Assembly (NCBI GenBank): GCA_943332105.1 | Contig: CALQOD010000011.1 | Location: 1-43,447 of the forward strand | Source of the DNA: Chitinophaga pinensis | Lineage (GTDB): Bacteria; Bacteroidota; Bacteroidia; AKYH767-A; OLB10 | DNA: 43,447 bases | Direction: 5' to 3' | In this document: one piece after another, positions 6,398 to 33,749 of the stretch | Layout: every line of letters begins with the position of its first letter | Position numbering within the stretch: position 1 is the stretch's first letter | The notes under the pieces: model-generated | What the model saw: the letters and a program-made list of their open reading frames with translations, nothing else | Told to the model about the DNA's origin: nothing | Databases searched by the model: none | Position numbers and translations under genes: made by a program

Positions 6398-9300
6398 ATG
6401 ATAATGAAACAACGATTATTTTTTCTTTTAATACTACTTAGTCAATTCGCATTCGGACAGGATATTACTCCTGCTAAGGATACGACTTCTCGCAAGCCAT
6501 TAATGATTTATAGTCTGAAGAAGGCAACAACATTTAAAATAAATCATCTTTCAGGATTTTATAAATCTCCAGTTGCAATTTCAATTTCCGGAATTGATAC
6601 ATCCACAGCGAAAATAATTGTATCAAATGAAAAAGGTGAAACATATCCAGGTTTAAATTTTACAATTACAGAAACATCATCTTTATCAATAATTTTAAAG
6701 GGGGAGAATGGAAAAGAAAGTAAATACCTAGGTACTTATTTTATTAATTCTCCTCATCAGCTTCCAATCGTTTCAATTATTGTCGACTCAATCGAGTTTT
6801 TTCCACCTGAAGGAATCTATTATGGTGAAGTAGCTAATCGTAATGAAAAGAAAAAAAATAAAAAAGCAAAAACAAAAGTTGTTGGCAAGGCATGGGATAA
6901 AAAGCCAATATCTTGCTTTGCGCAGTTTTATTTTTACAATGAATTGATTGATGAATTAGCTCTCGATGTTAAGACATATGGAGGGATGACATTAGGCTGG
7001 AAGGAAAAGTCATTACAATTATCCGCAAGAGATAATAAATATGAACGCAGTAAAATAAAAGTAAAACTATTTCAGAATTTACCTTTCAGAGATTATCAGC
7101 ATGTAGTTCTTCGAACATCTGGAAATGACCAACACGCTACGCGAATAAAAGATATTGCAATTAGTCAAGTCGCTGCAGATATTGATTTAAATACAAAAGA
7201 TTTTCGTCAGGTTATATTATATGTAAATGGTATTTATTACGGAATTCACAACTTGCGCGAGAAAATTAACGGCGATTATTTTAAATACCGTTACGATTGG
7301 AAGAAAGGTGATTTTGTTGAATTGCAAGGTTCAGGCGATGAAAGTGCTGAGTACAATTCTTTTGTTTCTTACCTAGTAGAAAGTTCAAACGAGCCTGATT
7401 TTATTAATTTGATAAAAGATAGTATCGATATTGAAAATTATTTCAATTACCAGATTTTTGAAACGTATATTACAAACATTGACTCGCGAGGAAACGTTCG
7501 TTTTTACAAACATAAAGATGGTAAATGGAAATGGGTAGTTTACGATGCTGATCAGGCTTGTGCTTATGCTGAATCGAACTTCATAAAAAACCGATGTTTG
7601 CCTGAAGAGCGACTTTGGTATAATCCACCATTCACAACAACGATACTTGAACATTTATTAAAAAATGATACACTCCGAAATCGTTTTGTGACGCAATATT
7701 GTTATTTGAATGCAACCTATTTGAATGCGGCTTCTTTCGGAGCCAGTTTAGATTTGCGTGCAGAAAAAATAAAAGATGAATTGCCGCGACATTTTAATCG
7801 TAGAAAAAATATTTATAATGAAGATTTAGTGTCATGGACAGAAAAAATCAATAAACTAAAGCAATATTTCTCCGATCGTGATTCTACTTTGTTTAAAGAT
7901 TTGAAAATTACTTTTGCACTTGATTCTACTTATCGATTAATAGTCGGTCAGAACAATAATTTATTCAAAGGCCTTACTGTAAATAATTCGATTGTACATA
8001 CTAATGCTATTCAAGGTTATTTCTTTAAAAGTATTCCGTTTGAATTATCAGCGTTAAATGCAAATCATCAATTTAAATTTGAAGGATGGAGCGATGGAAT
8101 TAAATCAATGAGTAGAAATATACAGCTCAATTCAGATTTAAGCATTACTGCTAATTTCAGTCATATTAAAGCATCATCAAAAAAAGATAGTATCGAGATT
8201 AAAAAATATTATATCAATAATTCAAAGAAAGAGCCTTTATTATTTATTGAATTAGCAAATAAACACATTAATGATATTTCTTTGAAAGGCGTTATGTTGT
8301 ATGAAGATTGCAACGGTTTGTCTTATGATTTAAGTAACGTAATTATTCCTGCATCATCCTCAATTATTCTTGCAAACAACTTGAATTTATTTAATGCCAA
8401 TGTTCAGATTAAAAACTTAAAACCAATTATAGCCTTTGAGTCGACTTCTTTCTTGAATAATGTTCAGTTTAATCTTATTGATACAATAAATCATACCTGG
8501 ATTGATAGTTTGCATTATCTTGTAAGCGATTCGATGTTAGTATTACATGCTGGTTACCTGATTCAAAAAGAAAATGGTAAATTAAATGTCAAGGATATTT
8601 CAATATCGAAACTTAAACAATTAAAATTTGGCATTTCCGTTTATAAGGTAAAGGCTGAAGACAGAACAATTTATATGGCAGCAATTATTTCGGTAGTGCT
8701 TATTATTTTAATTGTGTTATTCCTAGTGCGTAGGAGCAATAATAAAATTACGCATTTACCTATCGTATTATTTTTTTGTTTCATGGTGGCATCTTGTAAT
8801 GGTCAAACTGATAAAGCAGAAAACAACGTTGTTGTAGCAGATTCAACAAAATCCAACTGTGATAGAGGGAATTCGGTTCTTAAACGTTATATTGATAATG
8901 CAGGTAAAGGTGATTCATCAATGTTAGGTACTCGAAATGTTAGAGCCGTTTTCCCAGGATTGTTATATAGAGGCGGAGGAAATAATCTTGATTTGAAAGA
9001 TTCAATTCCGAAGTATTATGTTCAAAATCCCTTACCTTATTATGCAATTGATAATTTGCATTACGCAGGATTTAATAAAATCTATTATCTCTATTCAAAG
9101 AATTTTACGCAACGCTATGAATCATCAAAAATAGATTCGCTTAAAAGTATTGGCTTAGAGTATGATTGCCGTCCAGTAATTTCAGATACGTTTTTAATGG
9201 AGTTCTATACTGATTTGTTAGAAAGAGTCAACAATAAAATTGATAATGAAAAGGAGAAGGTCTACATTCACTGTTGGAATGGCTGGCATCAATCAGGGAT

Positions 9301-9715
9301 GCTTTCTGCGTTATCATTGATGCAGTTTTGTGATTTTAATTCTACGCAAGCTCTAAAATATTGGGAGTTGTGTACCGAGAATAATTATAAAGGATACAAC
9401 AATGTACGTACAAGAATTAAGGAATATAAGCCGCTTCAAGGCTATGAGTTTACCATAAGTCAAAAGAAGATGCTTTGTCCTTGTATGACAGAATTAGATA
9501 CAGCTCATGTTGGAAAACCAATTACCACTCCTAAAGATTCTTTAATGTTATCTAGTACTAATATGATGGAGAAGCAGCATGGTATTTATGTAGTTAAATT
9601 AGGTGAAACGCCTTCCGGTATTAGTAGAAGGATTGGGATTTCTATTAGTGAATTAAGAAAGAAAAACAATTCACGATTGAATGTAATTTACGTAGGGCAA
9701 GAACTAAAATACTAG
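6398..9715 (+). CDS. CotH-kinase-like protein + TM + internal lipoprotein signal + PTP/DSP-like domain + C-terminal LysM
   Basis: YVNGIYYGIHNLREKINGDYF ... YITNIDSRGNVRFYKHKDGKWKWVVYDADQ (CotH); MAAIISVVLIILIVLFLVRRSNNKITHLPIVLFFCFMVASC (TM, loop, lipobox); VYIHCWNGWHQSGMLSALSLMQFC (PTP-like P-loop with Arg->Gln); GIYVVKLGETPSGISRRIGISISELRKKNNSRLNVIYVGQELKY (LysM). Confidence 0.8.
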   Translation: MIMKQRLFFLLILLSQFAFGQDITPAKDTTSRKPLMIYSLKKATTFKINHLSGFYKSPVAISISGIDTSTAKIIVSNEKGETYPGLNFTITETSSLSIILKGENGKESKYLGTYFINSPHQLPIVSIIVDSIEFFPPEGIYYGEVANRNEKKKNKKAKTKVVGKAWDKKPISCFAQFYFYNELIDELALDVKTYGGMTLGWKEKSLQLSARDNKYERSKIKVKLFQNLPFRDYQHVVLRTSGNDQHATRIKDIAISQVAADIDLNTKDFRQVILYVNGIYYGIHNLREKINGDYFKYRYDWKKGDFVELQGSGDESAEYNSFVSYLVESSNEPDFINLIKDSIDIENYFNYQIFETYITNIDSRGNVRFYKHKDGKWKWVVYDADQACAYAESNFIKNRCLPEERLWYNPPFTTTILEHLLKNDTLRNRFVTQYCYLNATYLNAASFGASLDLRAEKIKDELPRHFNRRKNIYNEDLVSWTEKINKLKQYFSDRDSTLFKDLKITFALDSTYRLIVGQNNNLFKGLTVNNSIVHTNAIQGYFFKSIPFELSALNANHQFKFEGWSDGIKSMSRNIQLNSDLSITANFSHIKASSKKDSIEIKKYYINNSKKEPLLFIELANKHINDISLKGVMLYEDCNGLSYDLSNVIIPASSSIILANNLNLFNANVQIKNLKPIIAFESTSFLNNVQFNLIDTINHTWIDSLHYLVSDSMLVLHAGYLIQKENGKLNVKDISISKLKQLKFGISVYKVKAEDRTIYMAAIISVVLIILIVLFLVRRSNNKITHLPIVLFFCFMVASCNGQTDKAENNVVVADSTKSNCDRGNSVLKRYIDNAGKGDSSMLGTRNVRAVFPGLLYRGGGNNLDLKDSIPKYYVQNPLPYYAIDNLHYAGFNKIYYLYSKNFTQRYESSKIDSLKSIGLEYDCRPVISDTFLMEFYTDLLERVNNKIDNEKEKVYIHCWNGWHQSGMLSALSLMQFCDFNSTQALKYWELCTENNYKGYNNVRTRIKEYKPLQGYEFTISQKKMLCPCMTELDTAHVGKPITTPKDSLMLSSTNMMEKQHGIYVVKLGETPSGISRRIGISISELRKKNNSRLNVIYVGQELKY

Positions 9716-9725
9716 TTGATTATTT

Positions 9726-10919
9726 CTAATTCTTCTTTGCTACAAGTTGATTTTGCTTTTTCGATCCCCAATGATAACCTAATGAAAAATTAAGGTCTCC
9801 CAAGTAAGAAGGAGTTTTATAAGTTGAATCTAAATCTTCCTGGTATAAATTATCACTAAAATCTCTTACTGGTTTTTCGTATACACCAAACACACTTACC
9901 TTCCACTGTTCTTTGTTAAAGTATTTATATGGAATGCCTGTATCATCTTGTACAAGGTAATTACTTTTCGATAAAACAAAATCTCTGATAGTAGTAAAAC
10001 TGCCATAGTGCAAAAGATAAGAGGCTGACTTAATAAAAGTGTTGCAGTTAGCACTTATCGATTTATCCATAAATAGCATATTGCCTGAATGAGAGATTAA
10101 TTCATCGTTTGCTAAATCACAGCAGAAGTATGTTACTTTTTGCTGTTTCTTTAATTTTTTATTCCATAAAACAACTTGTACAATGTTACTGCTCTCATGA
10201 TTACTCAACGCAGTAAAGTTTCCATTCTCATCTATTTTTCCAAATGAAACCTGACTGATATCATGTCCAGTTCTCACAGCGCCCCATAAAATTAATGGCA
10301 ACATACCATTTACTTTTGTATTGTGCTTAGTATCGGCACTCATATTTTTTGTGATGAAATAACTTTTACTATAAATGTCACGCAATACAAATTCAATATC
10401 TTTCAAATACTGACTGGTATAGGCAGAATCTTTAGCAAATAAATTAGGAATATCACCTACGTATTCACGAGCAATCATGAAGTATTCGTTTGCATTCGGA
10501 TAAAGCCACGCCATGTGAATAAAATCACCACCAGAAAAAGGATAGAAGACAAAGTTTGTATCATTAGCTCCATTGTTTTTTAGGTTGCTTTCATTCCAAC
10601 TCTTGATTTTTGATAATCGAGTGTTTTCAATGCCGTACATTTTCTGATTTACATTTTTATTGAAGGACTCAATAAAGGTTTTGTCCCACTGAGGCTGGTA
10701 ATAGTTTATAGGGTAGCCCGCAATTAAATGAGATAAATTATTGTATGAAGAATCTATATTGACTTTTACCACTTCAACCTCTGAAGCAGGAGTTGATGAA
10801 CTATCTTGTTTGGTTTCGTTTGTAGATACTGTTATTGGTGAATTCTTTTCTGTTGAATTATTGCAGCTCAGCGCAACAAAACAGAAAGCAATGAGAATAA
10901 ATCGATAAAATGATTTCAT
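9726..10919 (-). CDS. Uncharacterised lipoprotein, FYPFSG family; paralogue of the C-terminal half of 12344-14854
   Basis: Lipobox CFVALSC|NNS; FVFYPFSGGDFIHMAWLYPNANEYFMIAREYVGD ... FIKSASYLLHYGSFTTIRDFVL...VQDDTGIPYKYF. Confidence 0.75.
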   Translation of the reverse strand: MKSFYRFILIAFCFVALSCNNSTEKNSPITVSTNETKQDSSSTPASEVEVVKVNIDSSYNNLSHLIAGYPINYYQPQWDKTFIESFNKNVNQKMYGIENTRLSKIKSWNESNLKNNGANDTNFVFYPFSGGDFIHMAWLYPNANEYFMIAREYVGDIPNLFAKDSAYTSQYLKDIEFVLRDIYSKSYFITKNMSADTKHNTKVNGMLPLILWGAVRTGHDISQVSFGKIDENGNFTALSNHESSNIVQVVLWNKKLKKQQKVTYFCCDLANDELISHSGNMLFMDKSISANCNTFIKSASYLLHYGSFTTIRDFVLSKSNYLVQDDTGIPYKYFNKEQWKVSVFGVYEKPVRDFSDNLYQEDLDSTYKTPSYLGDLNFSLGYHWGSKKQNQLVAKKN

Positions 10920-11597: not shown

Positions 11598-12314
11598 ATG
11601 AGTTTCAAATTAATATTTTTGTTATTTTTTGTTTGTTTAATTACTTTTTTTATTCAATCATCTTGTATCGATAAACCTGTTTCTGATAAGGAGCGTTTGA
11701 TGGGTCAATTTAATTATAAAACAGATGCTGCTTTCATTAAATTACCACTTTCTTATTCTACCAAAGAGATTTATTTGCGCAAAACAGTTTACGAAAAGTT
11801 TAAAGCCATGGCCGATTCTGCTGCTAAAGATGGAATTACTTTAAAAGTGCTCTCAGGTACTCGAAGCTATTCAGAACAAAAGACCATTTGGGATAATAAA
11901 TGGAATAATTATTTTAAAAATGACGATAGCGTTGCCTGTATGAGAAAAATACTTTTGTATAGTTCAATGCCCTCTGCCTCTCGGCATCATTGGGGAACAG
12001 ATATCGATATTAATAGCCTAGAGCCCTCTTATTTTGCTTCTGGAAAAGGTTTAAAGGAGTATACTTGGTTAGTTAATAATGCTTCTCGTTTTGGATTTTG
12101 TCAGGTTTATGACGACATGAAAAAAACTGGAAGAACAGGATATCAAGAGGAGAAATGGCATTGGTCTTATTTGCCTGAATCCAATAAAATGTTAAAAGAA
12201 TATAGAACTAAAATCGCTTATTCAGACATTAAAGGTTTTAAAGGAAGTAACTTAGCTTATAAAATTAACTTTATCACTATGTTTGTTGATGGGATAAGTT
12301 TAAAGTGTAAGTAG
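11598..12314 (+). CDS. VanY-type D-Ala-D-Ala carboxypeptidase (M15B) lipoprotein/anchored
   Basis: LSGTRSYSEQKTIWDNKW ... SASRHHWGTDIDINSLEPSYF ... EEKWHWSYLP; N-term QSSCID lipobox-like. Confidence 0.85.
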   Translation: MSFKLIFLLFFVCLITFFIQSSCIDKPVSDKERLMGQFNYKTDAAFIKLPLSYSTKEIYLRKTVYEKFKAMADSAAKDGITLKVLSGTRSYSEQKTIWDNKWNNYFKNDDSVACMRKILLYSSMPSASRHHWGTDIDINSLEPSYFASGKGLKEYTWLVNNASRFGFCQVYDDMKKTGRTGYQEEKWHWSYLPESNKMLKEYRTKIAYSDIKGFKGSNLAYKINFITMFVDGISLKCK

Positions 12315-12343: not shown

Positions 12344-14854
12344 GTGACTTCAAAAATAAATTTCGCAACAGCTTTTTCTTTAGTTGTTGCTAATATGATA
12401 GGTGTAGGAATTTTTACTAGCTTAGGTTTTCAACTTTTTGGATTGACCGATTATCGCGTTATCATGTTGTTGTGGATGGTGGGAGGTTTTTTAGCTATTT
12501 TGGGTTCTTTTATTTATTCTGAATTAAGTGCAGCATTCCCTCGCTCTGGTGGCGAATATAATTTTTTGTCGGAAGCATTTGGACGATTTACAGGGTTCTT
12601 GTCTGGATGGATTTCAATTACTCTAGGATTTTCAGCACCCATTGCAGCAGCCGCTCATGCATTTTCTAAATATTTCATTCATCTTTTACCTTTTGAGATA
12701 AATAATAATTTGCTTTCAGTGTTGCTAATTTTTCTTGTAACGTGTATTCATATTTTCAAAAAAAACATTGGCGCTAATTTTCAGGTTATTATTACAGTTG
12801 CTAAAATAGTTTTAATGGTGTTGTTTATTTTATGCGGCTTTTATTTTGCTAATAAAGGCAATAATGTAAGTTATTTGGTAGTAAATCCCAATATTAAAAG
12901 TGAATTATTCAGCTCTGCATTTTGGGTTTCACTGATATATGTATCTTATGCGTATTCAGGATGGAATGCGACGGCTTATATGATAGATGAAATTGATCAA
13001 CCGAAGAGAAATGTCCCACGTTCAATTTTATATGGAACTTTGGTGGTGATGATATTATATGTTCTAATAAATTGTGTTTTTCTTTTATCAGCACCCGCGG
13101 ATGCAATGAGAGGGAAAGAAGATGTTGGATTTGTGGTAGCCAATTTTATTTTTAGTAATCAAGGTGCCATGATTATAGGCGGTCTTATTTCCTTTTTTCT
13201 TATTTCTACTATCAGCTCCATGGTTGTTGTAGGCCCTCGTGTAATTAGTCGTGTGGCCCAAGATTTTTCTGAACTCAGTTACCTATCTAAATTTTCTAAA
13301 AATGATGTTCCAGTAAGAGCTATTATAACCCAATCGTTGATTTCAATACTGATTTTATTGACGACTGATTTTCAATTTATCATAACTTGTATAGGGTTTG
13401 TTTTAACCTTATTTACTACGCTTACTGCTGTTGGATCAATCGTCCTACGGTATACACGTCCAGATGTTGTTCGCCCTGTTAAAATGCCGTTATATCCATT
13501 CCTTCCAATCATCTATATACTATTTAATATTTGGATTATGTATTATCTGTTAATGAATAAGCCTTATGAAAGTGGACTAGGTTTGTTGTTTGTTGCTGTA
13601 GGTGCAGTATTTTATTTTCTATTTTCTAAGAAGAAAAATAGTTTGTTTGTTTCTTTTATCTTGTTTGTTGTGATCTCGTTTAGTTCATGCAATCAAAGCA
13701 ATAGTTCTAATCTTAAAATAGATAGTATAAAAACAAGTAGTTCGGTAAATACGGATTCCTCTAAATTATCTGCTGTAGATTCTACAAAAATTGAAGTTGT
13801 TGGAAATTCTTATCATGACGAAATATTAAAAGATTTCAAATCTAATTCTAATTTAAATGAATGTGCTAGCTACCTCGCTTGTATCGACTCAGCAGCTATT
13901 CCGAAAGATTTTAAAAAATATGCAAGTAAATTAAATAAAGCCTGGTATAAAAAATGCGATAAAATGCTGCATCCTGTAACACGTTGGATGAAAGAAGAGC
14001 ACTTGGATACCTTGGGAGGCAATAACAAACTTGTTTTCTATCCTTTTAGCGGTCCCGACTTCGATTTTGCATATTCTTTTTATCCTAATGCTTCAACCTA
14101 TGTAATGATTGGATTGGAAGGGATTGGTGATTTATCTTTGTTTGAGAAAGATAATACGTACAAGCAAAATAATTTTATAAAAGAGGCTGGGTCTATTTTA
14201 AGAACCACAAATAAGTTAGGATTCTTTGTAACGATACATATGCGCTCAGAAATGCGTGTAAATGGAACTATGTCTTTTATTGCTTTTTATGTAAAGAAAA
14301 TGGGTGGTGAAATAGGTGATATTGTTCCAATGCATTGGGATAAAGATAAGGGCGTTCCTGTGGAATTGTCGAGAGGAGATAAAGGTAATATGTTTAAAAT
14401 GATTTGTAAGATGGAGCCGAACTCAAAACCAATTACAATTTATTATTTTTCAAAAGATATATCTGATCATGGTCTTGAGGGCGAAAACGATTGGTTGGAT
14501 TGGGTAAAGAAAACGGCCGATGGTCAGCCAATAGTTAGTTTAACAAAATCTGCTTCATATCTAATGCATTTAAGTAGTTTTTCAGTAGTAAGAGATTTTA
14601 TTTTAGAAAACTCTGTCCTGCATATACAGGATGATTCAGGAATACCTTTGTCAGATATGGAATCAGATGATGCTGGTGTGAAGCTATATGGAAAGTACAC
14701 ACGAACAATTAAATTATTTGCTGGAAGAGTTCAAAAGGATATGCGAAACCGTTATACAGAGCGTGATAAGGTAGAATCTTTACCATTTGCTATTGGCTAT
14801 AATGTAACGCATCGTGAGTGCAATTTGCAGGTTCGCTCTCCATATTTCAGATGA
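12344..14854 (+). CDS. APC-superfamily amino-acid permease fused to an internal lipoprotein signal and FYPFSG-family domain
   Basis: GTG start; FATAFSLVVANMIGVGIFTSLGFQL ... GGFLAILGSFIYSELSAAFPRSGGEYNFLSEAFG (APC); FSKKKNSLFVSFILFVVISFSSC|NQSNSS; NKLVFYPFSGPDFDFAYSFYPNASTYVMIGLEGIGD ... LTKSASYLMHLSSFSVVRDFIL ... IQDDSGIPL. Confidence 0.85.
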   Translation: MTSKINFATAFSLVVANMIGVGIFTSLGFQLFGLTDYRVIMLLWMVGGFLAILGSFIYSELSAAFPRSGGEYNFLSEAFGRFTGFLSGWISITLGFSAPIAAAAHAFSKYFIHLLPFEINNNLLSVLLIFLVTCIHIFKKNIGANFQVIITVAKIVLMVLFILCGFYFANKGNNVSYLVVNPNIKSELFSSAFWVSLIYVSYAYSGWNATAYMIDEIDQPKRNVPRSILYGTLVVMILYVLINCVFLLSAPADAMRGKEDVGFVVANFIFSNQGAMIIGGLISFFLISTISSMVVVGPRVISRVAQDFSELSYLSKFSKNDVPVRAIITQSLISILILLTTDFQFIITCIGFVLTLFTTLTAVGSIVLRYTRPDVVRPVKMPLYPFLPIIYILFNIWIMYYLLMNKPYESGLGLLFVAVGAVFYFLFSKKKNSLFVSFILFVVISFSSCNQSNSSNLKIDSIKTSSSVNTDSSKLSAVDSTKIEVVGNSYHDEILKDFKSNSNLNECASYLACIDSAAIPKDFKKYASKLNKAWYKKCDKMLHPVTRWMKEEHLDTLGGNNKLVFYPFSGPDFDFAYSFYPNASTYVMIGLEGIGDLSLFEKDNTYKQNNFIKEAGSILRTTNKLGFFVTIHMRSEMRVNGTMSFIAFYVKKMGGEIGDIVPMHWDKDKGVPVELSRGDKGNMFKMICKMEPNSKPITIYYFSKDISDHGLEGENDWLDWVKKTADGQPIVSLTKSASYLMHLSSFSVVRDFILENSVLHIQDDSGIPLSDMESDDAGVKLYGKYTRTIKLFAGRVQKDMRNRYTERDKVESLPFAIGYNVTHRECNLQVRSPYFR

Positions 14855-14855
14855 T

Positions 14856-16052
14856 ATGCGAAAACGCTGGCTGTCGCTAATATCGTTCTGCTTTTTGTTA
14901 GTCCTAAACTTAAATGCGCAGAATCTTCCTAAAAGTAAAATAGACCTTCAGAAAATCGTTGCGCGCTCGCCAGTTACCATCGACCTTTCCCAAAATAAAG
15001 TACAGATTATGGTAGGAGAGGTTCGAAAAAACAAATCCGCGAGTCCAGAAATTACTTATTCTTCACTTGGCCTTAATGCTGAAAATTATTTTTATCCCGC
15101 AAGTTGTGTTAAACTGCCTGTTGTTATCCTCGCGCTTGAGTGGTTGAATGAACATAAAGAAAATGGAATTACAATTAATTCGCCTTTCGAGTTAATATCA
15201 AATAGTAATTGTCATTCCTATAAGTCGCTTGAAGAAACTAAAGACGATATTTTAAGTATTGAAAATTGTATCAAGAAAATGCTTCTGGTAAGCGATAACA
15301 GAAGTTATAATGCTTTATTCGATCTACTTGGTCGAGATTACATCAATTCAAAATTAAAAGCAAAAGGATATACGAAAACGCAAATAGTAAAATCGTTTGC
15401 AGGTTGTCCTGATTCGCTCTTGAATTTTAAACCAGCTTTGAATTTTTTTGATGGTAATCGTGAAATTGTTTTTCATCTCGACAGTATTAGTTACGTAAAT
15501 CCAATTAGTAAATTAACATTTGATGCAAGGGTAGGAGATTCCATAATGATTGATAGCGTAACTACAATTGCGGGCGCAAAAGATTTCTCGTTTAATAATT
15601 ATTTACCACTAGATGAAGGTTTAGATATGTTGGTTCAATTGATCTACCCTTCTAAACAATCTTTATGGAAAATTACAGCTAAACAGCGACAGTTTTTAAT
15701 GTACTGGATGAGTCGTTATCCCAAGGAAAGTAGAATTAAAAATTACACTTCCGGGAAGCAGTATTTTGATGCTTATAAAAAATACTTGATTTATGGTCGG
15801 GAAGAGAAACCAATAAAATCTGATTCGCTGCGTATTTATAATATTGTTGGATTGTCCTATGGCTTCGCGACGGATATCGCTTTTATAAAAGCAACTAAAT
15901 GCAAAACAGCTTTTTTTATTGCAGCAACTACTTATTCGAACAATGATGGAGTAATAAACGATAATAAATACGATTATCAAACAATCGGATTTCCGTTTTT
16001 AAAATATCTTGGGAAGGAAATATTTAACCAATTTAAAATTAATAAAAAGTAA
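14856..16052 (+). CDS. Secreted beta-lactamase-fold (class A-like) serine hydrolase
   Basis: Start revised to ATG 14856, giving signal peptide MRKRWLSLISFCFLLVLNLNAQ; SxxK in YPASCVKLPVVILALEWL; SDN in LLVSDNRSYNALFDLLG; no clear KTG. Confidence 0.75.
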   Translation: MRKRWLSLISFCFLLVLNLNAQNLPKSKIDLQKIVARSPVTIDLSQNKVQIMVGEVRKNKSASPEITYSSLGLNAENYFYPASCVKLPVVILALEWLNEHKENGITINSPFELISNSNCHSYKSLEETKDDILSIENCIKKMLLVSDNRSYNALFDLLGRDYINSKLKAKGYTKTQIVKSFAGCPDSLLNFKPALNFFDGNREIVFHLDSISYVNPISKLTFDARVGDSIMIDSVTTIAGAKDFSFNNYLPLDEGLDMLVQLIYPSKQSLWKITAKQRQFLMYWMSRYPKESRIKNYTSGKQYFDAYKKYLIYGREEKPIKSDSLRIYNIVGLSYGFATDIAFIKATKCKTAFFIAATTYSNNDGVINDNKYDYQTIGFPFLKYLGKEIFNQFKINKK

Positions 16053-16917: not shown

Positions 16918-17133
16918 AATTGAATAAAAAATTCTTGATTAATTAACGTTTGTAAAATTCGTCATTCAAATTTTGCCAACCAAGTAATTTAGTCTTGTTC
17001 CCTTTTTATTCATCTTTTGTTCATATTGAGGGAATTATGATATACAAAATAATATCAACTTGTTTGTAAGTAATTGAAATTCAGATTATTTAATGTTAAG
17101 CACTAGTATTCGATTTTTTTAATTTTTGAATTT

Positions 17134-17618
17134 CACGCTCAGTTCTGGAGTTAATATGAATTGTCAGGAGGGAAGAATGCTTGGTGGTTTTGGGATGCTA
17201 TAAAATATACCCAAGGTGATGGTATCCATTTAAATGGTATTGGTTCTGAATTGAAAGGGACATTGCTTTTTCATGCTATTGAAAATAGTTTATCATTAAT
17301 TCGAAGCAATTATATTACTTCGAAACCATTTGAAATTGTTGCCGATAGTTTATTAATGCAAGAGTTTGATACAGCATCCGCTGATTCATTTATTGCCTAT
17401 AAAAATTAAAATCAGCAAAATGATACAGCAATATTTGAGGAAAATAAAACTATAAAAATCAAAAGAAAGAAATTAATTCCTCTGTTTACATTGTCAAAAA
17501 GAATGACATGTTGGGAGCCATTACTTTGAAAACCAAAGTATCCGTTGTTAAACTTAAAAAAATCAATAAGCTTTATGGTGATTTAATTCAGCTAGGTCTA
17601 AAATTACAATTGAAATAA
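17134..17618 (+). pseudogene. Degraded SGNH hydrolase + LysM (C-terminal remnant, in-frame stop and frameshift)
   Basis: Frame 1: HAQFWS*YELSGGKNAWWFWDAIKYTQGDGIHLNGIGSELKGTLLFHAIENSL (SGNH DxxH block); shifted frame from 17481: SVYIVKKNDMLGAITLKTKVSVVKLKKINKLYGDLIQLGLKLQLK* (LysM). Confidence 0.8.
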
Positions 17619-30997: not shown

Positions 30998-32446
30998 ATG
31001 ATTTCGTTTTTTGAATACTCTTTTGTGCATCCTTGGTTTTTTACTAATTATTCATTCTTGGCAGTGCTCGGTATTTTTTTGATGTTGTATTCTTTTTTTA
31101 AAACCGATTCGAAATGGCGAAAATTATTCGTAATAATTTTTAGTTTGTTTTTTTATTATAAATCTAGTGGGCCATTTTTATTGATTTTTATTTCCATGAT
31201 AATTGCTGATTACCAAATTGCAAAAGCAATTGAGAAGCTTGTTAATGAAAAGACAAGAAAATTGCTGTTAGTAGTCTCGATTTTATTTAGTTTATCTTTC
31301 CTATTTTATTTTAAATATTCGTTTTTTTTTCTTGACATCGTCAATGATTTTTATAATTCAGGATTTCAGATAGAAAAGTTGTTTCTGCCGATAGGGATTT
31401 CATTTTATACTTTTCAATCTATAAGTTATATTGTCGATGTATATCATCGTAAAATTAGTTCCACTAGGAATTTTATCGATTACGCTTTTTACATGACATT
31501 CTTTCCACATCTTGTTGCAGGTCCTATAGTTCGTGCGCGTGATTTTATTCCTCAGATTAATAAGCCGCTTTCGGTTGATACATTTATAATGAAATCGGCC
31601 TTATTTAGAATAATTATAGGTCTCTCTAAAAAAGTCATTATTGCAGACTATCTCGCAAGGTATGTTGATATGGTTCATGCTTCTCCTGGGGCTTATTCAG
31701 GTATTGAAAATTTATTGGCTATGTATGGGTATGCGTGTCAGATTTATTTTGATTTTTCTGGTTATTCAGATATTGCAATAGGTATTGCGCTGTTAATGGG
31801 CTATCAATTAAAGGAGAACTTTAGTAATCCTTATCAAGCACATTCAATTTCTGAATTTTGGCGTCGTTGGCATATTTCATTAAGTACTTGGCTTCGTGAT
31901 TATATTTATATTCCATTGGGTGGTAATAGGTATGGGCTTTTTAAAACATATCTTTTTTTAATGATTACAATGACGATAGGTGGCTTGTGGCATGGTGCAT
32001 CTTGGTGTTTCGTTGTTTGGGGAATGGGTCATGGCTTAGTGCTTGTTTTTCATAAATTATTATTTAATAAAAATTCTAGCTCAATTAAAGGAAGTAAGTG
32101 GTTTAATTTATTTGGAATTCTTATTACTTTTCATTTTGTTTCATTAATGTGGGTGTTTTTTAGAGCAAATGATTTTAAAGATGCATTTACAATTTTTAAT
32201 CAAATAATATTTAAGACAAATGCATTAGATTTGATTGGTTTTATAGTTGATCGGACAGGATTGTTTTTGATGTTAATTATTGGACTAGTTGTTATTTTTA
32301 TTCCTTCATTTGTTAAAATAACAATGGAAAAATATTTTAATAAATTACCTTTATTGATTATTGCTATTATAATGGTTTTGTTTTTTCAAATTGTACTTCA
32401 ACTTAAACTCGCAGAAATAGCACCCTTTATCTATTTTCAATTTTAG
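30998..32446 (+). CDS. MBOAT-family O-acyltransferase (AlgI-like)
   Basis: Start revised to ATG 30998; PIGISFYTFQSISYIVDVYH, FFPHLVAGPIVRARDFIPQI, FSGYSDIAIGIALLMGYQLKENFSNPY, EFWRRWHISLSTWLRDYIYIPLGGNR, GGLWHGASWCFVVWGMGHG. Confidence 0.93.
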   Translation: MISFFEYSFVHPWFFTNYSFLAVLGIFLMLYSFFKTDSKWRKLFVIIFSLFFYYKSSGPFLLIFISMIIADYQIAKAIEKLVNEKTRKLLLVVSILFSLSFLFYFKYSFFFLDIVNDFYNSGFQIEKLFLPIGISFYTFQSISYIVDVYHRKISSTRNFIDYAFYMTFFPHLVAGPIVRARDFIPQINKPLSVDTFIMKSALFRIIIGLSKKVIIADYLARYVDMVHASPGAYSGIENLLAMYGYACQIYFDFSGYSDIAIGIALLMGYQLKENFSNPYQAHSISEFWRRWHISLSTWLRDYIYIPLGGNRYGLFKTYLFLMITMTIGGLWHGASWCFVVWGMGHGLVLVFHKLLFNKNSSSIKGSKWFNLFGILITFHFVSLMWVFFRANDFKDAFTIFNQIIFKTNALDLIGFIVDRTGLFLMLIIGLVVIFIPSFVKITMEKYFNKLPLLIIAIIMVLFFQIVLQLKLAEIAPFIYFQF

Positions 32447-32447
32447 T

Positions 32448-33749
32448 ATGAGAAAAAATATAAGTATTACTTTTATTTTTATTGTTTTATTTTGTTTAAT
32501 CAAAACAAATACATTCAGCCAGTCTGATTCATGCTATGTTGATACTCTTTGCCATGATGAAAATATAATTGAAAATATTGAAGCACTTCAGAACTTTTAT
32601 ATGAAACTAAATTCTCATTTGGAAAACCCTAAACAAATTAGTATTTTGCATTTAGGTGATTCACATATTGAAATGGGATATTTTGTAGAGGAAGTACGTA
32701 GTTGTTTTAAAGTTAATTTTGGATTAGCAGGATTTGGAATGCTATTCCCCTATCAATTAGCGAAATCTGTTCCTTATTTTGTCCAAACCAAAACTACCAA
32801 AGGTGCATGGAATGGCAAATGTTATTTGAAAGCAGAAAGTGATTTTAAGTTTGGGATTGCTGGTTTTACAATCATGACAATGAATAAAGAGGCTGAATTT
32901 GAAATGCAAGCACTTAAATGTGATACATCTATTATTTCAGGTAATAAAGTTGTGGTTTATTCTTCTTCTAATGAAGCTAGTACTATAAATGTATGTGGTA
33001 TGAACTATCCCTTGGATAGTATAAGTAAATTAGACCCTGTTGAAATTGAATCTGAAAAAATTGTGGTTGATGATTTTCAATATAGAAAAACTACTTTTTA
33101 TTTTAATCAACCAATAAATAAATTGATTTTTTCAGTCAGTCAGTCCATAGATAGTATTCCTTTTTTTATTAGTGGTATTCAACTTACCAATCATGAACAA
33201 CCGGGAATCGTATACCATAATTGCGGTGTAGTGGGGGCAACATTTAAACAGCTTAGTAAAAATGCTAGTTTGTCAATTTCACAGATGTTAGATATCAATC
33301 CGGATTTGATCATTTTTTCTTATGGGTCTAATGAGGCTTATGAACCTGATTTTATTTCTAATGATTATTATTTAGCAGTTATCGATTATATCCAACGGGT
33401 AAAAAAAACGTTGCCTAAAGCAGCAATTATTTTAACTACACCGCCTGACACGAGATCTAATGGCAGATTCCCAATTAATAATATGGAGATATGCAATGTA
33501 TTAAAGCAGATAGCTAAAGAACAGAATTTAGCACTGTGGAATTTACATGATCAAATGGGTGGAGCGGGATCTATGATAAAATGGTTCAATAAGGGGTTGG
33601 CATCAAAAGATAAATTGCATTTTAAAAAAATAGGTTATGAATTGCAAGCTAAGATGTTTATGTATGCATTATTAAATGGATTTAAAAAGTTCAATAATTT
33701 AAACAAGGATTTAATTATTCCTGCTTATTCGGATTTTTATAAAAATTAA
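32448..33749 (+). CDS. SGNH/GDSL-type hydrolase, secreted
   Basis: Signal peptide; LHLGDSHIEMGYF; GVVGATF; SYGSNEAY; NLHDQMGGAGSMIKWFNKGLASKDKLHFKKIGYELQAKMF. Confidence 0.82.
   Translation: MRKNISITFIFIVLFCLIKTNTFSQSDSCYVDTLCHDENIIENIEALQNFYMKLNSHLENPKQISILHLGDSHIEMGYFVEEVRSCFKVNFGLAGFGMLFPYQLAKSVPYFVQTKTTKGAWNGKCYLKAESDFKFGIAGFTIMTMNKEAEFEMQALKCDTSIISGNKVVVYSSSNEASTINVCGMNYPLDSISKLDPVEIESEKIVVDDFQYRKTTFYFNQPINKLIFSVSQSIDSIPFFISGIQLTNHEQPGIVYHNCGVVGATFKQLSKNASLSISQMLDINPDLIIFSYGSNEAYEPDFISNDYYLAVIDYIQRVKKTLPKAAIILTTPPDTRSNGRFPINNMEICNVLKQIAKEQNLALWNLHDQMGGAGSMIKWFNKGLASKDKLHFKKIGYELQAKMFMYALLNGFKKFNNLNKDLIIPAYSDFYKN

Follow-up and report, generated by a model that had tools for sequence, protein, structure and literature searches.

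An open reading frame (ORF) of the window, the whole 43,447-nucleotide stretch of DNA analyzed here, joins an amino acid permease to an exported domain through an internal lipobox, and we consider it probable that this fusion of two operon neighbors acts as a polyprotein, which would be cut at the lipobox into a permease and an ordinary lipoprotein. The frame reads from the permease into the second domain without an internal stop codon. Its N-terminal part is a LAT-type APC permease, predicted to transport amino acids: residues 5 to 400 score 175.6 bits against AA_permease_2 (PF13520), for a cut-off of 27, and residues 4 to 431 of the LAT transporter BasC (PDB 6F2G) align with the permease part end to end (E 2e-46). 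Because this alignment runs through to residue 431, we place the end of the last permease helix in the cytoplasm and read the following KKK as the cytoplasmic tail, in keeping with the orientation established for LAT structures. After the last helix come SKKKNS, LFVSFILFVVISFSS, Cys449, a polar linker and a domain of ∼335 residues. The junction has the features of an SPase II substrate, namely a basic n-region, a short hydrophobic stretch and a small residue at -1 (KKK, then NSLFVSFILFVVISFSS, then C); the residue at -3 is a Phe, less typical than Leu. An earlier note on this DNA had described the permease, the basic loop and the lipobox in this order, and its position for the Cys codon was exact. 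The features are collected in Table 1.

Table 1. Features of the fusion ORF, its neighbors in the window and related fusions in other genomes (positions are those of the window unless a locus is given)
Feature	Position	Strand	Remarks
Fusion ORF: APC/LAT permease, internal lipoprotein signal, exported domain	12344-14854	+	836 aa, GTG start; one ORF also in G004 and G287
AA_permease_2 (PF13520) match, residues 5-400	12356-13543	+	also homologous to BasC (6F2G) up to residue 431
Last permease helix (TM12 by the BasC alignment), residues 411-427	13574-13624	+	
Basic loop KKK, residues 429-431	13628-13636	+	permease cytoplasmic tail, predicted to double as signal-peptide n-region
Internal h-region and lipobox -4 to -1 (SFSS), residues 432-448	13637-13687	+	17 residues separate last Lys and Cys; a TM would usually be longer
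Cys449, predicted lipidated +1 residue	13688-13690	+	invariant in G000 (window genome), G004 and G287
Low-complexity polar linker (S/N/T/K/D), typical lipoprotein tether	13691-13840	+	length varies, by in-frame indels only
Exported domain, unnamed lipoprotein family	13841-14851	+	motifs FYPFSGPDF, KSASYLMH, QDDSGIP
Beta-lactamase2-like protein, conserved operon partner	14857-16052	+	likely ATG 2 nt past the fusion stop
VanY D-Ala-D-Ala carboxypeptidase-like protein, N-terminal lipobox-like signal	11598-12314	+	immediately upstream of the fusion
Stand-alone lipoprotein paralog of the fused domain, VALSC-NN	9726-10919	-	
Second fusion: CotH, TM, basic loop, internal lipobox, DSP-like and LysM	6398-9715	+	Cys800 at 8795-8797
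G344 (another family): CotH, TM, internal SPase I signal, DSP-like, two LysM	L190 7276-10815	+	homolog of the window CotH fusion, 1179 aa
G287: CotH, TM, basic loop, internal AWA-Q SPase I signal, unnamed ∼230-aa domain	L077 5066-8101	-	additional, different fusion

The same fusion is found in two other genomes. A congener (G004) has the same 836-aa ORF, with 77% identity; in G287, which belongs to another family of the class, the version is 815 aa long, with 45% identity and the junction LHKKILKPFTGFWIVSIFLIAC. Between the window genome and G004, synonymous sites are saturated (NG86 dS not estimable) and every indel is in frame; their signal regions share 31% identity, yet the KKK, the hydrophobic core and SSC-NQ are kept. 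Across the three fusions, K430 and K431 are invariant, only I444, C449 and N456 are invariant between K431 and F498, and the last basic residue lies 14 to 17 residues from the Cys, a spacing that is signal-like rather than TM-like. The earlier note had made its reading depend on the presence of the lipobox in close homologs, and there the Cys is invariant (3/3 APC fusions). These three fusions, two of them in one genus, were seen among more than 90 genomes with the domain, a count of fused members that is a lower bound, our genome searches being samples of the class and the phylum. An open frame of 694 aa around the lipoprotein in G098 turned out to be no fusion: it overlaps the permease, but in a different reading frame.

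The exported domain matched no Pfam and no NCBIfam family. It occurs in 93 of the 395 sampled genomes of the class, about a quarter, and those stand-alone homologs whose N termini are readable are almost all N-terminal lipoproteins, mostly with clear lipobox signals. One of them is encoded in the window, as had been pointed out before, and shares 29% identity with the fused C-terminal domain (E 4e-33). The family, recognizable by the three motifs of Table 1, sits in a conserved operon of permease, lipoprotein and beta-lactamase-like genes. In a PDB profile search only the HptS sensor came up, at a marginal E of 0.0035 that we do not trust, and no convincing PDB relative was found; an AlphaFold2 model of the domain built from a three-sequence input had a mean pLDDT of 39 and was set aside.

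As would be expected of a polyprotein, relatives encode the two parts in separate genes that lie side by side. The lipoprotein gene directly follows the permease gene in about 20 loci, which come from many families; a beta-lactamase-like gene usually comes next, and a gene for an M23 peptidase often lies upstream. Where the start of the lipoprotein gene is readable, it is separated from the permease gene by -23 to +94 nt, and the two genes are sometimes in the same frame. Since the unfused loci have a permease adjacent to a lipoprotein with an N-terminal signal, the fusion joins operon neighbors, and this repeated adjacency of the separate genes also indicates that the joined parts are real partners. 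The members of the operon (LAT permease, unnamed lipoprotein, beta-lactamase-like protein, M23 peptidase, VanY, LysM and SH3 proteins) suggest a function in cell-wall turnover linked with the uptake or exchange of amino acids.

In phylogenetic trees, a single clade (100/98) unites the three fused lipoprotein domains, and the permeases of the fused genomes form a clade with those of G001 and of two unfused MAG loci (100/100). G001, another congener, has a permease that nests inside the genus, beside that of G004 (95/83), and that stands alone: it ends with SKQKNNIATENEN and a stop codon, directly overlaps the beta-lactamase-like gene, and the lipoprotein half is missing. The simplest reading is that the fusion arose once and that G001 later lost its lipoprotein half. 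The G287 lineage probably also took part in a horizontal transfer, as donor or recipient, because 41 other genomes of the genus of G287 are without the fusion. Farther along in the window, at 17119-17615, lies a decayed SGNH-hydrolase/LysM gene, of which the C-terminal third alone is recognizable, split across frames. In its place, G004 and G001 have an intact SGNH-hydrolase/LysM gene with MBOAT and DHHW-type acyltransferase genes; these last are missing there in the window, which has a more distant MBOAT/SGNH pair at 31079-33698.

The cluster contains a second ORF of the same design, as the earlier note had recognized, and both ORFs are kept in G004. This CotH fusion has a junction that reads RRSNNK, then PIVLFFCFMVASC, with the lipobox VASC-NG. 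In its homolog from another family (G344), an SPase I site, GASA-Q, stands in place of the lipobox (YSKRKKGMASLILIFIISTGASA-QNSD). A second CotH homolog of the window genome (contig C114:39-2045, L191) is unfused and ends with a TM and AKKKKKQSI. In G344, next to its CotH fusion, at L190 13361-16258, adhesin-like ORFs carry near-identical long tandem repeats with frame breaks between the repeats. The additional CotH fusion of G287 has the junction YRKRRSR...FAWA-QNGD, and the DSP-like protein is encoded there by a separate, overlapping gene. A Gln at +1 is the Q-rule described for SPase I substrates of Bacteroidetes (PMC5837995), and both GASA-QN and AWA-Q fit this rule. Unfused CotH relatives stop just past the TM and a basic tail. 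At least three joinings (APC with a lipoprotein, CotH with DSP-LysM, and CotH with another domain) appear to have taken place, with one layout and two predicted types of cleavage. The suspicion that two ORFs of one design were more than chance is borne out by the APC fusion in G287 and the CotH fusion in G344.

How widespread the design is was assessed with a heuristic scan for a membrane protein followed by a basic loop and an internal signal, with genome stretches as background. Within the cluster, the design was found in 2 of 35 ORFs in the window, 2 of 15 in G004 and 2 of 12 in G287; stretches elsewhere gave none among 305 ORFs of the window genome and none among 145 of G287, and 2 of 495 ORFs from other genomes scored, both being start-site artifacts without an upstream TM. 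The contrast between the cluster and the ∼945 sampled ORFs outside it, where no credible case was seen, is indicative and is not a p-value, because the thresholds were set with the cases in view; the scan also recovered few N-terminal lipoproteins. On the evidence here, we do not see a general Bacteroidota strategy, the fusion being found only in this cluster and in few lineages. Of the recurrent strategy put forward in the earlier note, what stands is a design that is genuine, recurrent and conserved, with parts that are real partners; its generality does not. We would propose, with a little less than even confidence, that the envelope cluster of some Bacteroidota repeatedly combines an inner-membrane protein and its exported partner in a polyprotein that SPase I or II cuts, in which the basic cytoplasmic tail of the membrane protein would be the n-region of the next signal; the partners would be made 1:1 and delivered at the same translocon.

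Why the fusion exists is a question distinct from how it works. The stop between two tightly packed genes may have been lost by a neutral accident, tolerated without any benefit since LspA would cut the product anyway, an origin that is compatible with the polyprotein mechanism. The tight packing in relatives, sometimes in the same frame, the loss of the lipoprotein half that G001 underwent later and the rarity of the fusion, with 3 cases in the more than 90 genomes that have the domain, would all be accounted for in this way. The presence in one cluster of several separate fusions that share a design, with none in ∼945 ORFs elsewhere, and their long persistence across families would hardly be, and we hold an accident without benefit to be possible but somewhat doubtful. 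The benefit of the fusion, if any, may lie in 1:1 synthesis and in delivery at one translocon.

Our working hypothesis for the mechanism is that translation of the fusion ORF would start once, at the permease, whose 12 helices would insert into the membrane and leave the basic tail KKK on the cytoplasmic side, where it would act as n-region for an internal signal peptide of the lipoprotein type. The short hydrophobic stretch would then re-enter the Sec translocon and export the downstream domain, and Lgt would lipidate Cys449 before LspA cuts ahead of it, in the order described for these enzymes (PMC5837995, PMC7857515). The products would be a permease that keeps the signal-peptide helix at its C terminus and a lipoprotein equivalent to the stand-alone homologs. 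The sorting of this lipoprotein is not predictable, because the +2 rule has been reported not to hold in Bacteroidetes (PMC5837995). The CotH ORF would follow the same route and be cut by SPase II in the window and, in relatives, by SPase I. We infer a single start, export, lipidation and cutting because the conserved features are those of a cleavable signal and not of a plain 13th helix. Several points weigh against the hypothesis: the Phe at -3 in the window is less typical than a Leu, the known APC fusions number only three, two of them from a single genus, the Cys could be conserved for another reason, and a permease with a 13th hydrophobic segment is an odd product to predict.

Alternatively, the stretch might be a 13th TM, lipidated or not, and the fused domain might stay tethered as a periplasmic accessory or substrate-capture domain, as in OpuA and GlnPQ. 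The single polypeptide and the partnership of the two genes in ∼20 other loci agree with such a chimera, and a permanent linkage would explain why the fusion was retained in three genomes. We nevertheless find it unlikely, since a tether of the OpuA type would have no cleavage site between its domains and leaves the retained sites unexplained: the Cys and the small -1 residue are kept while the rest of the signal diverges, the stretch is only 14 to 17 residues long, the stand-alone homologs are free lipoproteins, and homologs of the CotH fusion exchange the lipobox for AxA-Q, a switch to be expected only if the site is cut. Because a short signal of the cleavable type is kept, with the Cys in 3/3 APC fusions and a lipobox replaced by a Q-rule site in the CotH homolog, we predict that the parts are separated after co-translation. 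The earlier note had offered tethering or co-translation as the role of the design, and the second is now favored, the first being less likely than stated.

Additional translation starts near the signal, which would yield the lipoprotein as a separate product, are very improbable. The in-frame TTG that the earlier note had singled out lies at 13643-13645, just past the KKK, and a GTG at -26 in G004 and another at -27 in both CotH fusions could indeed give signal peptides. However, the aligned codon is a GTT or a gap in G004, a signal begun at the TTG would lack a basic n-region, no start codon lies from -41 to -3 in G287, and none is common to the three APC fusions, so that the proposal for the TTG does not hold and the signal, with its Cys at residue 449, is not that of an ORF N terminus. 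The window is a single contig from a draft assembly that comprises 147 contigs, but an assembly or sequencing artifact or a frameshift-generated read-through is ruled out for practical purposes, because three independent assemblies contain this fusion, synonymous change is saturated and all indels are in frame.

If the polyprotein mechanism is correct, such proteins are overlooked by lipoprotein prediction limited to N termini, and a signal that forms the final segment of a 12-helix protein is accessible to Lgt and LspA. The fusion would also name a functional partnership, between the permease, the unnamed lipoprotein family and the beta-lactamase-like protein, for a widespread uncharacterized envelope operon. 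To our knowledge, cellular polyproteins split by signal peptidase are very rare in bacteria, and we know of none with an internal lipobox; our literature searches on internal lipoboxes, bacterial polyproteins and fbcH brought up no relevant paper. What appears to be new is an APC permease followed by an internal lipobox, together with several such fusions in one cluster whose cleavage types are interchangeable.

The signal itself resembles those of Bacteroidota lipoproteins handled by Lgt and LspA and of Q-rule substrates of SPase I (PMC5837995), with its lipobox, basic n-region, short h-region and polar linker, and with AxA-Q in the CotH fusions of G287 and G344; in Bacteroidota lipoproteins, however, the signal is N-terminal, whereas here it is internal, at residues 432 to 448. 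The permease part is homologous to BasC end to end (residues 5 to 431), but BasC stops near the start of the internal signal and has no exported domain after it. The OpuA and GlnPQ transporters also have an exported domain, elsewhere a separate lipoprotein, that is covalently joined to the transporter; unlike the fusion described here, they are ABC and not APC transporters, and their fused domain is uncleaved, without an internal cleavage-type signal. The closest parallel is FbcH of Bradyrhizobium, a cytochrome b/c1 polyprotein whose parts are separated by signal peptidase at an internal signal peptide. It differs in belonging to a respiratory complex and in its SPase I-type signal, whereas the window has an internal lipobox (SPase II), an amino acid permease and a second, unrelated fusion in the cluster. 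The design is otherwise the same: one ORF combines a multispanning inner-membrane protein, an internal signal of the cleavable type and an exported partner, and the parts are separate neighboring genes in other bacteria.
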